Shown: positions 16,902-44,912 of the stretch, in pieces
How positions within the stretch are numbered: the stretch's first letter is position 1
Layout: each line of letters opens with the position of its first letter
Source: Futiania mangrovi
Lineage (GTDB): Bacteria; Pseudomonadota; Alphaproteobacteria; Futianiales; Futianiaceae
Reading direction: 5' to 3'
Length of the DNA: 64,000 bases
Assembly: GCF_024158125.1 (NCBI RefSeq)
Contig: NZ_JAMZFT010000002.1
Span: 372,001 to 436,000, forward strand
Notes under the pieces: generated by a model
Told to the model about the DNA's origin: nothing
The model's input: only the letters and a program-made list of their open reading frames with translations
The model's database searches: none
Position numbers and translations under genes: made by a program

Positions 16902-17531
16902 TCACGACGGCACATCACCGCGCGCACGCAGCCAGTCGAGAAGTTCGAGAAGCGGAAGCCCCTGAATCGTGAAGGTATCGCCCTCGATGCGAGAAAAGAG
17001 ATGAACCCCCGGCCCCTCGATCCGGTAGCACCCAACCGATCCGAGAGCAGATGCCCCCTCAATCTCCAGATAGCGTGCGATGAAGGCGTCGGACAGCGGC
17101 CGGACGGTAAGGCGTGCGTGACCCACGTGACGCCAGGCCGGATTTCCGCCGATCACAGCCACTGCCGCACTGTAAAGGTGATGTGTCTTGCCTGAGAGCA
17201 GCTGCAGGGTCGCGGCAGCCTGTTCGGCTGTCCCGGCCTTGCGCACAACCTGCCCGTCGCACACCAGTACCTGGTCGCATCCGATGACCACGGAGCCGGG
17301 GGCACGTCGCGCCACGGCAACCGCCTTGATCTCGGCCAGCGCATCGGCTAGGTCGCGTCCGCCCAAGCCTTCGGCAAGTAGCGATGCTGCGACTTCGGCC
17401 TCGTCGACCGGGGCCCGGACGGCTGCGAAGGAAAGTCCTGCATCCCGCAGCAGGCGGGCGCGCGTCGGGCTGCCACTCGCCAGCACCAACGGCGGCTCCG
17501 GTCCGAGCGTCTGCGGATCGGATACGGTCAT
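16902..17531 (-). CDS. maf: Maf-family nucleoside triphosphate pyrophosphatase
   Basis: Maf proteins hydrolyse canonical or modified nucleotides to monophosphates and PPi and have been linked to septum inhibition. 209 residues. Substrate loop LASGSPTRARLLRDAG near residues 17-32, catalytic aspartate in VIGCDQVLVCDG, and SRIEGDTFTIQGLPL at the C-terminus, the YceF-like form. Its ATG overlaps the ppsR stop by four bases, so it is translationally coupled to ppsR. Confidence 0.94.
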   Translation of the reverse strand: MTVSDPQTLGPEPPLVLASGSPTRARLLRDAGLSFAAVRAPVDEAEVAASLLAEGLGGRDLADALAEIKAVAVARRAPGSVVIGCDQVLVCDGQVVRKAGTAEQAAATLQLLSGKTHHLYSAAVAVIGGNPAWRHVGHARLTVRPLSDAFIARYLEIEGASALGSVGCYRIEGPGVHLFSRIEGDTFTIQGLPLLELLDWLRARGDVPS

Positions 17532-18367
17532 CCGCCGTTCGCCTTGCGCTGCTGGTAAAGGGTGAAGATGGCCGCCGCGGTTTCCTCGATCGACCGGCGG
17601 GAAACGTCGATCACCGGTATGCCCAGCTTCTCGTAGAGCCGCCGCGCGGCGGACGTTTCGTCACGCACCATCGAGGGATTGACGTAATCGGTCTCCTCAG
17701 TCTCCGACAGAGACAGAAGACGGTTGCGCCGGATCTGTACCAGACGTTCCGGTGATGCCAGCAGCCCTACCACCAGTGGCCGACGCAGGTTCTCGACGAT
17801 CGGCGGCAGCGGTATGCCCGGTACGACCGGCACGTTTGCAGCCTTCACACCGCGGTTTGCAAGATAGATGCAGGTCGGTGTCTTCGACGTCCGGCTCACA
17901 CCCAGAAGCACCACGTCGGCCTGGTCCAGCTCGTGCACGTTCTGACCGTCATCGTGCGCCATCGTGTAGTTGAGGGCGTCGATGCGGGCAAAGTACCCGC
18001 TGTCCAGCTGGTGCTGGCCACCCGGACGGTGTGTGGTCTTCGTACCCAAATAGGCTTCGAAGACGGCGAGGACGCCATCGAGGACCGACAGGCAAGGCAT
18101 CCCAAGTTCGGCACAGCGGCGCACGAGCGCGTGGCGAAGATCCTCGTTCACCAGGGTGAAGAGCACGATACCCGGGGCATCCGCGATCCCGGCGAACACC
18201 TTCTCGAGCTGCCGCGGGGTCCGGACAAGGGCATAGGAGTGCTCTATGGGCTGCACCCGCTCGAACTGGGCAACCGCAGCCTTGGCGAGGACATTGATCG
18301 TCTCGCCGGTCGAGTCCGACACGAGATGGAGATGGAAATAGGTGACCGTTTTGCGGCGCGCGGACAT
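17528..18367 (-). CDS. ppsR: Pyruvate, water/phosphate dikinase regulatory protein (DUF299 kinase/pyrophosphorylase)
   Basis: Bifunctional ADP-dependent kinase and Pi-dependent pyrophosphorylase that switches PEP synthase or PPDK off and on by threonine phosphorylation. 279 residues. N-terminal FHLHLVSDSTGETINVLAKAA and the P-loop-like GVSRTSKTPTCIYLANRG (near residue 155) are diagnostic. No target dikinase is in the window. The gene begins at the left edge of the predicted origin and is transcribed away from it, the usual alphaproteobacterial position beside oriC. Confidence 0.93.
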   Translation of the reverse strand: MSARRKTVTYFHLHLVSDSTGETINVLAKAAVAQFERVQPIEHSYALVRTPRQLEKVFAGIADAPGIVLFTLVNEDLRHALVRRCAELGMPCLSVLDGVLAVFEAYLGTKTTHRPGGQHQLDSGYFARIDALNYTMAHDDGQNVHELDQADVVLLGVSRTSKTPTCIYLANRGVKAANVPVVPGIPLPPIVENLRRPLVVGLLASPERLVQIRRNRLLSLSETEETDYVNPSMVRDETSAARRLYEKLGIPVIDVSRRSIEETAAAIFTLYQQRKANGG

Positions 18368-18418
18368 GGAATCCTTCTACCCGATTGGCGGGGAAGGGCA
18401 AGCGGCACCGTCGAGTCC

Positions 18419-18427
18419 CGTGGATAA
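18419..18427 (+). promoter_or_regulatory. DnaA box candidate CGTGGATAA
   Basis: Eight of nine positions match the consensus TGTGGATAA. It lies 52 bp upstream of ppsR inside the predicted origin. Confidence 0.5.
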
Positions 18428-18700
18428 GTGGGAGAACACGGGGTCCCGACGGGGGGGCGTGTGGGCAAGCGCGGATTCATCCCCATTGTGAACGCGATGG
18501 CTGGCACGGACCTTGATCATGGGCACAACCCGGCCGAGAGGTTCCGTGACCTGCATCCGGAGCACCCGGCTTTCCCGAGATTCCGACTCAACCCCGCGAG
18601 CCAGCGCGCGACAGTTCAACGAAGAATCCCTACCGGAAGCTTCCAGCTATCTCCCGGCGAAACGGAGCCGTAGCGGACCCTGCCTGCCTGTGCATGAACC

Positions 18701-18709
18701 TGTGGATAG
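18701..18709 (+). promoter_or_regulatory. DnaA box candidate TGTGGATAG
   Basis: Eight of nine match to TGTGGATAA. It faces the next box 24 bp away in inverted orientation and lies just left of the AT-rich tract. Confidence 0.6.
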
Positions 18710-18724
18710 CTGCGGGACGCGCGA

Positions 18725-18733
18725 TGATCCACA
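18725..18733 (-). promoter_or_regulatory. DnaA box candidate TGATCCACA (G-box type)
   Basis: Eight of nine match to TTATCCACA and, as I recall it, identical to the G-box sequence described for DnaA binding in the Caulobacter origin. It is adjacent to the AT-rich tract that starts about 14 bp downstream. Confidence 0.65.
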
Positions 18734-18861
18734 GGACTCAGGCCCCAACAAGCTTCTTCAACCCTTTTTTAGATTCCTGACTTGTGTTGGGTCGTTCCGG
18801 TGGGCATCGTCGCCACCCTGTCGCCGAGGGAACTCGGCCTTCCCGGATGGACAAGAGGGTG

Positions 18862-19899
18862 ATGAGCCGTTCGACCGAGAAACCGCTTCTGCGTGCACTC
18901 AGCGGCGAGGCGTTGCCGACGCCTCCGGTATGGCTGATGCGGCAGGCTGGGCGCTACCTGCCGGAATACCGCAAGGTACGGGCGGAGGCGCGGGACTTTC
19001 TGGACCTGTGCTATTCGCCGGACCTGGCGACCGAGGTCACCTTGCAGCCAATCCGGCGCTATGGCTTCGATGCCTCGATCCTGTTTGCCGACATTCTCCT
19101 GATCCCGGATGCGCTGGGCCAGCAGGTTCGCTTCGTCGCCGGGGAGGGCCCGCGTCTCGAGCCTGTTCGCGATGCTGCCGCGATCGGGAAGCTGAGCGCC
19201 GCGCGGGTCGGAGAGCACATGCAGCCTGTCTACGAGACCGTCCGCCGGTTGCGGAGGGAACTGCCCGGACAGGTTACCCTTATCGGTTTTGCAGGGTCTC
19301 CGTGGACCGTCGCGACCTACATGGTGGAAGGGCGCGGCAGTCCGGATCAGAAGCAGGCACGGCTGATGGCATGGACAGCGCCCGATGTCTTCGGCGTGCT
19401 GATCGACAAGCTTGTCGCCGCGACCGTGGAGTATCTCTCAGGCCAGGTTGCCGCCGGGGCTGAAGTTCTGCAGCTCTTTGACAGTTGGGCGCAAGGGTTC
19501 TCGCCCGCGATGTTCGAGCGATGGGTCATCGCCCCGACGCGCGCCATCGTTGACGAGATCCGCGCCCGCCATCCGGGTGTGCCGATCATCGGTTTCCCGA
19601 GGCTGGCCGGCGCGCAGATTCCGCACTATGTCGCGGCGACGGGCGTCGATGCGGTCAGCCTCGACACCGGTGTCGACCCGGCATGGGCACGGCAGGTCAT
19701 GCCGGAAAGTGTATGTCTGCAGGGCAATCTCGATCCGCTTTGCCTGGTTGCGGGGGGAGAGGCGATGGCAGCCGAGACGCGGCGTCTTCTCGACGGGATG
19801 GCCGGCCGGGCGCATGTCTTCAACCTGGGTCACGGGATCGTTCCGGAGACGCCGCCGGAACATGTGAGTGCCCTGCTCGAGATTGTGCGCGGCCGGTAG
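18862..19899 (+). CDS. hemE: Uroporphyrinogen decarboxylase
   Basis: Decarboxylates uroporphyrinogen III to coproporphyrinogen III in heme synthesis. 345 residues. Signature PVWLMRQAGRYLPEYR near the N-terminus and GFAGSPWTVATYMVEG are present. The start is uncertain: ATG 18862 has AGAGGG very close upstream; ATG 18847 would add five residues (MDKRV) but has no SD. The TAG stop lies inside a GGTAGGGCC nonamer (19895-19903). Heads the hemE-hemH-hemJ group on the right side of oriC. Confidence 0.96.
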   Translation: MSRSTEKPLLRALSGEALPTPPVWLMRQAGRYLPEYRKVRAEARDFLDLCYSPDLATEVTLQPIRRYGFDASILFADILLIPDALGQQVRFVAGEGPRLEPVRDAAAIGKLSAARVGEHMQPVYETVRRLRRELPGQVTLIGFAGSPWTVATYMVEGRGSPDQKQARLMAWTAPDVFGVLIDKLVAATVEYLSGQVAAGAEVLQLFDSWAQGFSPAMFERWVIAPTRAIVDEIRARHPGVPIIGFPRLAGAQIPHYVAATGVDAVSLDTGVDPAWARQVMPESVCLQGNLDPLCLVAGGEAMAAETRRLLDGMAGRAHVFNLGHGIVPETPPEHVSALLEIVRGR

Positions 19900-28909: not shown

Positions 28910-28910
28910 C

Positions 28911-28924
28911 GTTTCACGTGAAAC
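28911..28924. promoter_or_regulatory. parS site 1
   Basis: GTTTCACGTGAAAC, a perfect 14-bp core of the universal parS palindrome, one base after the mnmE stop. ParB binds here to nucleate the partition complex. Confidence 0.93.
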
Positions 28925-28979
28925 ATGCTAGGAGCCAGGCCGTTCGCGGGTCGAGCGAATGGCGGCGCGTTCGGACGGA

Positions 28980-28995
28980 TGTTTCACGTGAAACA
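28980..28995. promoter_or_regulatory. parS site 2
   Basis: TGTTTCACGTGAAACA, a perfect 16-bp parS palindrome in the mnmE-mnmG intergenic region, 69 bp from site 1 and 30 bp before the mnmG ATG. Confidence 0.96.
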
Positions 28996-30902: not shown

Positions 30903-31584
30903 GCTTTGCCCGGTGAGTCGCACGGTGCGGGGTCCCGAGGCAGCCGATACTGCAGAACGCGAAAGCGTGCTGGGCGGCCATCGTGTTTCACGTGAAACAG
31001 CCGAGGCGCTCGATATCCTCGTCGCAGCCCTTCAGAAGTGGCAGAGGGCGATCAATCTGGTCAGCCCCTCGACGCTTCCGCATGTGTGGTCGCGGCATGT
31101 CGCGGACTCCCTGCAGGTTGCCGAAGCTGTGCCGCTCGGCGCCCGTATAATCATCGACCTCGGTTCGGGCGGTGGTTTCCCCGGCCTCGTGATCGCCGCT
31201 GTGCTGAAGGGCAAACCGGACAGTCATGTCCACCTTGTGGAAAGCGACCAGCGCAAATGTGCCTTCCTGCGTCAGGTCGTCAGACGCGCCGATCTGCCTG
31301 CGACCGTTCATTCCACGCGGATCGAGACAGCCGACCTGCCCCCGCCCGACGTCATCACGGCGCGGGCACTCGCTCCGCTGCCGAAACTCCTGGCGCTTGC
31401 GGTCCCGCATGGCGGCCCTGCAACTCTTTATCTCTTTCCCAAAGGGCAAGATGTGGAAGTCGAATTGACCGAAGCCGCTAAATGTTGGACACTTTCGGTC
31501 GACGCGATCCCGTCCAGGACCGACCCGGATGGTGTGATCCTCAAGCTGAAGGATGTCGCCCGTGTCAGGCCAGATGTTGTCTGA
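30877..31584 (+). CDS. rsmG: 16S rRNA (guanine-527 N7)-methyltransferase RsmG (GidB)
   Basis: Methylates G527 of 16S rRNA; loss gives streptomycin resistance in several bacteria. 235 residues. SAM-binding [18 protein letters not shown] near residue 95. The start is unsure: ATG 30877 lies inside mnmG and has no clear SD; GTG codons at 30868 and 30913 are alternatives. The third parS palindrome is embedded in its coding sequence, encoding R-V-S-R-E-T at the start of the conserved domain. Confidence 0.94.
30984..30999. promoter_or_regulatory. parS site 3, inside rsmG
   Basis: TGTTTCACGTGAAACA, a perfect 16-bp palindrome within the rsmG reading frame, about 2 kb from sites 1 and 2 and 0.6 kb upstream of parA. 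Confidence 0.96.
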
Positions 31585-32401
31585 ATCCGCCGGCACGCGC
31601 CGGTGCCGCATCATTGCCGTCGCCAATCAGAAGGGAGGCGTCGGAAAGACCACGACTGCCATCAATCTCGGGACGGCATTGGCGGCGGTTGGCGAGCGTG
31701 TCCTGATCGTGGACCTCGACCCGCAAGGCAACGCCTCGACGGGCCTTGGTGTCGAGCGTCACGGCCGCGCGATCTCCTCCTATCATGTCCTGCTTGGCGA
31801 GGCGGGCGTTTCGGAGGCGGTTGTCGGCACGATCATCCCTAACCTCGGCCTGATCCCGTCGACACAGGATCTTTCGGGCGCGGAAATTGAACTGATCGAA
31901 GCCGAACGGCGCGCCTTCCGCCTGCGCGATGCGCTTCGCGGACGGCCGGGCGGCCCCCGCAAACGTCTCGACTACGATCATGTGCTGATCGATTGCCCAC
32001 CATCGCTCAATCTGCTGACGATCAACGCCATGACCGCGGCAGATGCCGTTCTGGTGCCGCTGCAATGCGAGTTCTTCGCGCTCGAGGGCTTGAGCCAGTT
32101 GCTCGCCACGGTGCGAAAGGTTCGTGCCAATCTCAATCCCAGCCTGGATATCCAGGGCGTTGTGCTGACGATGTTCGATCAGCGCAACAACCTCTCGGGC
32201 CAGGTTGCGGCGGATGTGAAGAGCTTCCTGGGCGACAAGGTCTACGAAACGATCATTCCGCGAAACGTGCGGATTTCCGAGGCGCCGTCGCATGGGAAGC
32301 CTGCGCTTATCTACGATCACCGGTGTGTCGGAAGCCGAGCATACATGAGCCTGGCATCCGAGGTGATACGCCGGGAACGGGCGGCACTCGCGGCAGCCTG
32401 A
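31553..32401 (+). CDS. parA: Chromosome partitioning ATPase ParA
   Basis: Walker-type ATPase that drives origin segregation with ParB-parS. 282 residues. Deviant Walker A KGGVGKTT near residues 28-35, VDLDPQGNASTGLG, LIDCPPSLNLLTINAM, and NVRISEAPSHGKP. The start may be ATG 31553, GTG 31562 (SD GAAGGA eight bases upstream) or ATG 31574; all overlap the rsmG end. Chromosomal Soj-type, without the N-terminal HTH of plasmid ParA. Confidence 0.97.
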   Translation: MSPVSGQMLSESAGTRRCRIIAVANQKGGVGKTTTAINLGTALAAVGERVLIVDLDPQGNASTGLGVERHGRAISSYHVLLGEAGVSEAVVGTIIPNLGLIPSTQDLSGAEIELIEAERRAFRLRDALRGRPGGPRKRLDYDHVLIDCPPSLNLLTINAMTAADAVLVPLQCEFFALEGLSQLLATVRKVRANLNPSLDIQGVVLTMFDQRNNLSGQVAADVKSFLGDKVYETIIPRNVRISEAPSHGKPALIYDHRCVGSRAYMSLASEVIRRERAALAAA

Positions 32402-32445
32402 GACGCGGGGTTGCGACTCGAAACGGTAGGGTGACAGGAGTGGCG

Positions 32446-33360
32446 ATGACGGAAGAGGCAAAGCGCAAGGGGCTCGGACGGGGCTTGTCCTCCCTTCTGG
32501 GCGAAGATCTTGCGCAGGAGGAGGCTGGACGCAGCGACAGCGACGTCCGTACGGTACCCGTCGAGTTCATCGTGCCGAATCCGGAACAGCCGCGCCGCGA
32601 CTTCGATGCCGACGAAATGGAGGCCCTCGCGGCATCGATCCGCGAAAAGGGCATCATCCAGCCGCTGATCGTGCGGCGCCTGCCCGACGATCCGTCGAGC
32701 TACCAGATCGTCGCCGGCGAGCGACGCTGGCGCGCCGCACAGATGGCGCAGCTCCACGCGGTGCCGGTGGTCGTCCGCGACCTTACCGATGCAGAGGTTC
32801 TCGAGCTCGCCATCATCGAGAATATCCAGCGGGCAGACCTCAATGCGGTCGAGGAGGCGGGCGGCTTCCAGCGCCTGATCGATCAGTTCGGCTACACCCA
32901 GGAAGGTCTTGCCCGCATCATGGGCAAGAGCCGTAGCCATATTGCCAACACGCTGCGTCTCCTGAGCCTGCCGGAGGGCGTGCAGACGATGCTGCGCGAA
33001 GGCCGCCTGAGTGCAGGGCATGCCCGCACGCTGGTTGGGCGTGCCGATGCCGAAGACCTGGCGGCAGCGATCGTGGAGAAGGGCCTCAGTGTCCGCGAGG
33101 CCGAGCAGCTCGTGAAATCCGATCGAGCCTCCGGCAGGGGGCCATCCGGCGGCAAGGGCGCCAAGGGACGCACGGGAAAGAATCCGGACACGGTCGCACT
33201 GGAAAACGACCTGACAGCCGCACTGGGGCTCAAGGTCACGATCCTGCACAAGGATAATGAGGAGCAGGGTGAAATCCGCTTCGGCTATCATTCCCTGGAT
33301 CAGCTGGACGAGATCTGCCGCCGCTTGTGCGAGCCACCTTCCTTGCGAGATTGGTCGTAA
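32446..33360 (+). CDS. parB: Chromosome partitioning protein ParB
   Basis: CTP-dependent clamp that binds parS. 304 residues. N-terminal KGLGRGLSSLLGE (ParA-stimulating arginine), CTP-binding ParB/Srx domain with VAGERRWRAAQ and ENIQRADLN, then the HTH (TQEGLARIMGKSRSHIANTLRLL) and a C-terminal dimerisation domain. AGGAG seven bases before ATG 32446. Converges on holA; the 31-bp junction carries a GGTAGGGCC nonamer on the minus strand. Confidence 0.98.
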   Translation: MTEEAKRKGLGRGLSSLLGEDLAQEEAGRSDSDVRTVPVEFIVPNPEQPRRDFDADEMEALAASIREKGIIQPLIVRRLPDDPSSYQIVAGERRWRAAQMAQLHAVPVVVRDLTDAEVLELAIIENIQRADLNAVEEAGGFQRLIDQFGYTQEGLARIMGKSRSHIANTLRLLSLPEGVQTMLREGRLSAGHARTLVGRADAEDLAAAIVEKGLSVREAEQLVKSDRASGRGPSGGKGAKGRTGKNPDTVALENDLTAALGLKVTILHKDNEEQGEIRFGYHSLDQLDEICRRLCEPPSLRDWS

Positions 33361-44750: not shown

Positions 44751-44781
44751 TACGGTCTGCATAAAATTTAGGCGATAGCGG

Positions 44782-44809
44782 GGCGGCCATCGAGTGCCGC
44801 CTCTTTTTT
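44782..44809 (+). terminator. Rho-independent terminator after the amidase gene
   Basis: Stem GGCGGC/GCCGCC with an 8-base loop and a following TCTTTTTT tract, 31 bp after the stop codon. Confidence 0.85.
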
Positions 44810-44897
44810 ATGCAAATTGAGTGTTCCATCGGGCCAGCGCGGAATCGAGACTCGAAAAACTCTATATAATTCAATCGAGTGGAAGGTTTCTGAAAAG

Positions 44898-44912
44898 TGG
44901 CACGCTTCTTGA
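44898..44912 (+). promoter_or_regulatory. Sigma-54 promoter of glnK-amtB
   Basis: TGGCACGCTTCTTGA matches the -24/-12 consensus TGGCACG-N4-TTGC at all positions but one (final C to A). It lies about 115 bp before the glnK ATG. An AT-rich stretch and a 6-bp inverted repeat ACTCGA/TCGAGT (44850-44880) lie upstream and could hold activator sites. Implies NtrC-type nitrogen control. Confidence 0.8.

Follow-up and report, generated by a model that had tools for sequence, protein, structure and literature searches.

A predicted chromosome replication origin between ppsR and hemE in Futiania mangrovi, with a cluster of GANTC sites

Where does chromosome replication begin in Futiania mangrovi, the only genome of its order among the species compared? 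The window analysed here, a stretch of 64,000 nucleotides (C2:372001-436000 of a 3.39-Mb draft genome in five contigs), contains a long gap between ppsR and hemE that a preliminary description had proposed as the probable oriC. The two genes diverge from this gap, as described. The span initially given, 18368-18861, was correct at its start and not at its end: its last 15 bases lie inside hemE, and the gap ends at 18846 (Table 1). The hemE/COG1806 pair also borders the origins of Caulobacter crescentus and Rickettsia prowazekii; the origin is thus of a known kind, at a site well established in Caulobacter and Rickettsia (PMC1914354). No RNA family was matched in the window at gathering score. 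From its sequence and surroundings, the gap is almost certainly the chromosome replication origin, and the computed support for this prediction consists of its place, a skew switch, a box cluster, a conserved module and nearby parS sites.

Table 1. Features of the predicted origin and its surroundings (window positions).
Feature	Position	Strand	Basis
Predicted oriC, 479-bp intergenic gap between divergent ppsR and hemE	18368..18846	.	gene borders, skew, relatives' profile
ppsR (PEP synthase/PPDK regulator, PRK05339 family; COG1806), left border	17528..18367	-	NCBIfam name
hemE (uroporphyrinogen decarboxylase), right border	18847..19899	+	TIGR01464, E 4e-124
Eight GANTC sites, starts 18369, 18413, 18474, 18579, 18585, 18624, 18735, 18772	18369..18776	.	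motif count
DnaA-box-like TTATCCACG	18419..18427	-	8/9 match to TTATCCACA
Weak DnaA-box-like TCATGCACA, fourth nonamer	18689..18697	-	one mismatch to TTATNCACA
DnaA-box-like CTATCCACA, left half of inverted pair	18701..18709	-	8/9 match to TTATCCACA
DnaA-box-like TGATCCACA, Caulobacter G-box type; at upstream box position of relatives' profile	18725..18733	+	8/9 match to TTATCCACA
Putative unwinding module (box, C-rich spacer, trinucleotide-like repeat, T tract)	18715..18773	+	relatives' profile, E 0.00066
Degenerate repeat CAACAA-g-CTTCTTCAACC where relatives have CTACAACTACTACC	18746..18763	+	profile alignment; strict DnaA-trio rule unmet
T-rich tract, presumed DNA unwinding element	18764..18785	+	low GC of 18746-18785
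Two parS sites, 28910 (one mismatch) and 28980 (exact)	28910..28995	.	site search
Third parS site, exact	30984..30999	.	site search
parA (31553-32401) and parB (within frame 31993-33360, 32446 on used)	31553..33360	+	gene matches

Whole-genome GC skew had been named beforehand as a check on the proposal. It was computed from 54 sampled 20-kb stretches (32% of the draft genome, whose five contigs are of unknown order), and the sole within-contig switch from minus to plus fell at the gap. On contig C2, all 8 sampled stretches left of 380 kb had negative skew, the sign changed inside the 380-400 kb stretch (first half -0.025, second half +0.059), and 13 of the 15 stretches beyond it were positive. 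Across the contiguous segment C2:360001-440000, cumulative skew reached its minimum at C2:389963, window position 17963, 0.4 kb from the gap. On C1, 14 of the first 15 stretches had positive skew and the last 5 had negative skew, the switch near 1.0-1.05 Mb being terminus-like; on C3 the first stretch was positive and five were negative, and four on C4 were positive. The parS sites adjoin mnmE, mnmG, rsmG and parAB; both they and parAB are located 10-15 kb rightward of the gap. In the same survey, two stretches stood out by composition, C3:1-20000 with a strong TA skew (-0.11) and C2:1080001-1100000 with low GC (61.6%); both are perhaps acquired DNA.

The three DnaA-box-like nonamers reported earlier, each with 8/9 matches and one of them of the Caulobacter G-box type, are indeed present, and the gap (18368-18846) holds no perfect DnaA box. 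Two of them had been described as facing each other 24 bp apart: their starts, 18701 and 18725, are so spaced, but read as TGTGGATAG...TGATCCACA they form an inverted pair that points outward. Such box-like sites number 264 in the 3.39 Mb of the genome, so that finding four within 479 bp has a Poisson probability of about 8e-8; in the sampled 1.08 Mb (54 stretches, with 88 sites), the gap alone contained more than two per 470 bp. What is unusual is thus their clustering: the ten one-mismatch sites of the window are no excess, since 14 of 100 shuffles reach ten, and four of these ten lie inside the gap. A cluster of DnaA boxes beyond chance is what an origin of the hemE-COG1806 type is expected to carry.

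Three further observations concern nonamers elsewhere in the genome. At window positions 44756-44900, a pair of TTATGC-type one-mismatch nonamers, spaced by 50 bp, accompanies the window's 40-mers of lowest GC (30% at 44855). On contig C1, 11 of the 12 copies of TGATCCACA are on the minus strand, probably a strand-skew effect. A perfect TTATCCACA, among the few genome-wide, stands at C2:113218-113226 (L206:1315-1323) and precedes the gcrA match by about 180 bp. In Caulobacter, DnaA activates gcrA, and by analogy this site may reflect a conserved regulatory link.

We compared the locus with hemE loci of relatives, 27 taken from named contigs and 30 being the best-scoring among the 227 genomes of the class with a hemE match, the window's own included; given this choice of best-scoring loci and listed places, the sample leans to closer relatives. 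A divergent ppsR lies upstream of hemE in 47 of these 57 loci (46 of 56 without the window), with gaps, as cut, of 195-691 bp. Together these 47 gaps contain 154 box-like nonamers, where shuffled gaps gave 20.3, and two of the 47 have none. In most relatives, the block just before hemE approximates TAATCCCCGTTATCCACAGG-CTACAACTACTACC-TTTTTATATA.

A profile was then built from the hemE-upstream gaps of 103 relatives, the window being left out (57 seeds, 79 final members), and scanned against 1.064 Mb, in which the window itself replaced the four sampled stretches around it. It gave a single match, the module of Table 1; the next best had an E value of 23. In this match, TGATCCACA corresponds to the first box-like unit, with an eroded second box and a degenerate repeat. 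The AT-rich tract noted earlier is real but modest: the 40-mer 18746-18785 has 37.5% GC, a value equalled or undercut by 49 of the 63960 40-mers of the window, and the best 25-mer of the gap has 17 AT positions of 25 where most listed relatives have 18-24, so the tract is weaker here. Still, an AT-rich module adjoining hemE and common to relatives, another mark of a hemE-COG1806 origin, is found. The module resembles the basal unwinding system (BUS) of Pelliciari et al. 2021 (PMC8287927) in having a box, a spacer, a repeat and a T-rich tract, which follow each other as they do in the origins of the relatives. Instances of a rule simplified from that source (a box with up to two mismatches, 0-16 bp, then at least three 3'-NAN-5' trios) occurred in 57 of the 103 relatives and in 21 of 103 shuffles. 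Unlike the published element, the gap of the window shows at most two consecutive trios within 16 bp of any box and no instance of the simplified rule, and the module was therefore recognised by homology instead. Synteny in relatives, together with a relatives-only profile that matches here alone, lends the origin independent support, and with the skew switch these results bear out the initial placement between ppsR and hemE.

Could the gap nevertheless be merely a long divergent promoter region, in which DnaA regulates ppsR and hemE, with the origin elsewhere? Caulobacter DnaA doubles as a transcription factor (PMC4468827), and dnaA itself is near, at C2:345828, 44 kb left of the gap. However, the region around dnaA (C2:340001-360000) contains no one-mismatch box-like nonamer and skew is negative on both sides of it, so that an origin at that gene was rejected, whereas the skew switch and the module of the relatives both fall at the gap. 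We thus regard a promoter without origin function as highly improbable.

The Caulobacter origin, Cori, carries five CtrA sites, and both CtrA and IHF sites are described for that of R. prowazekii. The predicted origin differs from both. The preliminary description saw no TTAA-N7-TTAA site; in fact TTAA occurs nowhere in 18368-18846, which leaves neither a CtrA full site nor a half site, and a search of the gap at up to one mismatch found no IHF-like site. A CtrA-controlled origin of the Caulobacter type was thus rejected. The likeness to Cori lies in the hemE - COG1806 borders, the weak G-box-type DnaA boxes and the several GANTC motifs (PMC1914354, PMC4468827, PMC3973325), and that to the R. 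prowazekii origin in the same borders (PMC1914354).

The less expected feature, which the preliminary description had missed, is a cluster of GANTC sites, the motif of the cell-cycle DNA methylase CcrM. The gap contains 8 in 479 bp against a sampled mean of 0.50 (1.08 Mb), a 16-fold excess; among 52704 sliding windows of 479 bp this locus alone had more than four, making it the densest place sampled. The other seven palindromes of equal composition number 0-2 each in the gap. One site lies just past the key DnaA box and another inside the presumed opening tract. The genome encodes GcrA and a CcrM homologue of 371 aa, with a RAMA domain (66.4 bits) and a match to the NCBIfam CcrM model of E 1e-189 and 629.5 bits, under the model cutoff of 830. 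GANTC enrichment and a CcrM gene, both expected of a CcrM-regulated origin, thus occur together.

To place this excess, we counted GANTC at 120 loci, 71 from genomes with CcrM (window included) and 49 without, and kept those with a divergent ppsR (62 and 20; the other 9 and 29 were dropped). Two genomes without the locus (G170, G032) were left out, and two loci with gaps above 1.5 kb that probably contain another gene (L185, L200) were kept. In the 62 origins with CcrM, GANTC reached 7.25 per kb against 1.32 in flanks, with a mean of 3.37 sites where control palindromes average 1.26 (GANTC exceeding them in 51 of 62). Several genomes without a CcrM match are incomplete; the 20 origins of this group gave 6.42 per kb against 2.10, and 2.30 sites where the controls gave 0.87 (GANTC exceeding them in 15 of 20). 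Rechecked at E 0.001, the group showed only partial or weak methylase matches. No clean link between GANTC excess and CcrM presence was found across these 62 and 20 origins (group difference p = 0.19), and since the excess also appears where CcrM gave no match, a role for methylation is unproven. The count here is above that of most origins compared, but several (L182, L198, L094, L097) equal or exceed its density, which makes the trait a shared one. GANTC-ACA DnaA boxes were rejected as the source of the excess, as they make up 17 of 201 sites in CcrM-bearing relatives and none in the window. In one family without a CcrM match, three loci (L125, L126, L148) have 5, 4 and 5 GANTC sites in the origin gap; retention through another methylase or a recent loss of CcrM is possible. 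A limited literature search on GANTC and origins found no class-wide count at hemE origins.

Besides marking an origin, the cluster might act as a CcrM-dependent timing device: once fired, the origin would be hemimethylated and would remain refractory until the appearance of CcrM ahead of division, in a manner comparable to Dam/SeqA in E. coli. The excess over the sample (elsewhere at most four per 479 bp) and over control palindromes, here and in the 62 CcrM-bearing genomes, would fit, as would the presence of CcrM and GcrA. Likewise, the Caulobacter origin carries several GANTC motifs and over-expressed CcrM produces extra chromosomes in C. crescentus (PMC3973325), while at ori2 of A. tumefaciens methylation has an effect and hemimethylation was proposed as a restraint (PMC11514494). 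On the other hand, the excess is similar in the 20 origins without CcrM, most strongly in the three-locus family above; according to PMC3973325, moreover, deletion of CcrM leaves replication control in C. crescentus intact, and CcrM bearers in general show over-representation of GANTC in their intergenic DNA. Like E. coli oriC, the predicted origin concentrates a methylase motif, but there it is GATC with Dam and here GANTC with CcrM. We therefore consider a timing role unlikely. A broader proposal, that clustered CcrM sites form a CtrA-free control device whose methylation state governs DnaA loading or strand opening, and that the GANTC excess of hemE origins is an ancestral alphaproteobacterial once-per-cycle switch older than the CtrA control of Cori, appears to us distinctly unlikely.

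For the predicted origin itself, initiation may be pictured as follows. DnaA would bind the few weak boxes, with the inverted pair 18701-18733 as the core, and from TGATCCACA would extend rightward on a single strand of the C-rich, repeat and T-rich module (18740-18785), which would open, presumably at the T-rich tract. Two forks would then depart in opposite directions, and the parS/parAB locus would be among the first regions segregated. The eight GANTC sites should be methylated by the CcrM homologue, with any role in timing conjectural.

All together, these results fix a predicted origin for the sole genome of its order compared and extend the hemE-ppsR origin type to it. Of its features, only the GANTC cluster merits experiment: its excess over palindromes of the same composition offers a specific target for asking whether CcrM licenses origins outside Caulobacter.
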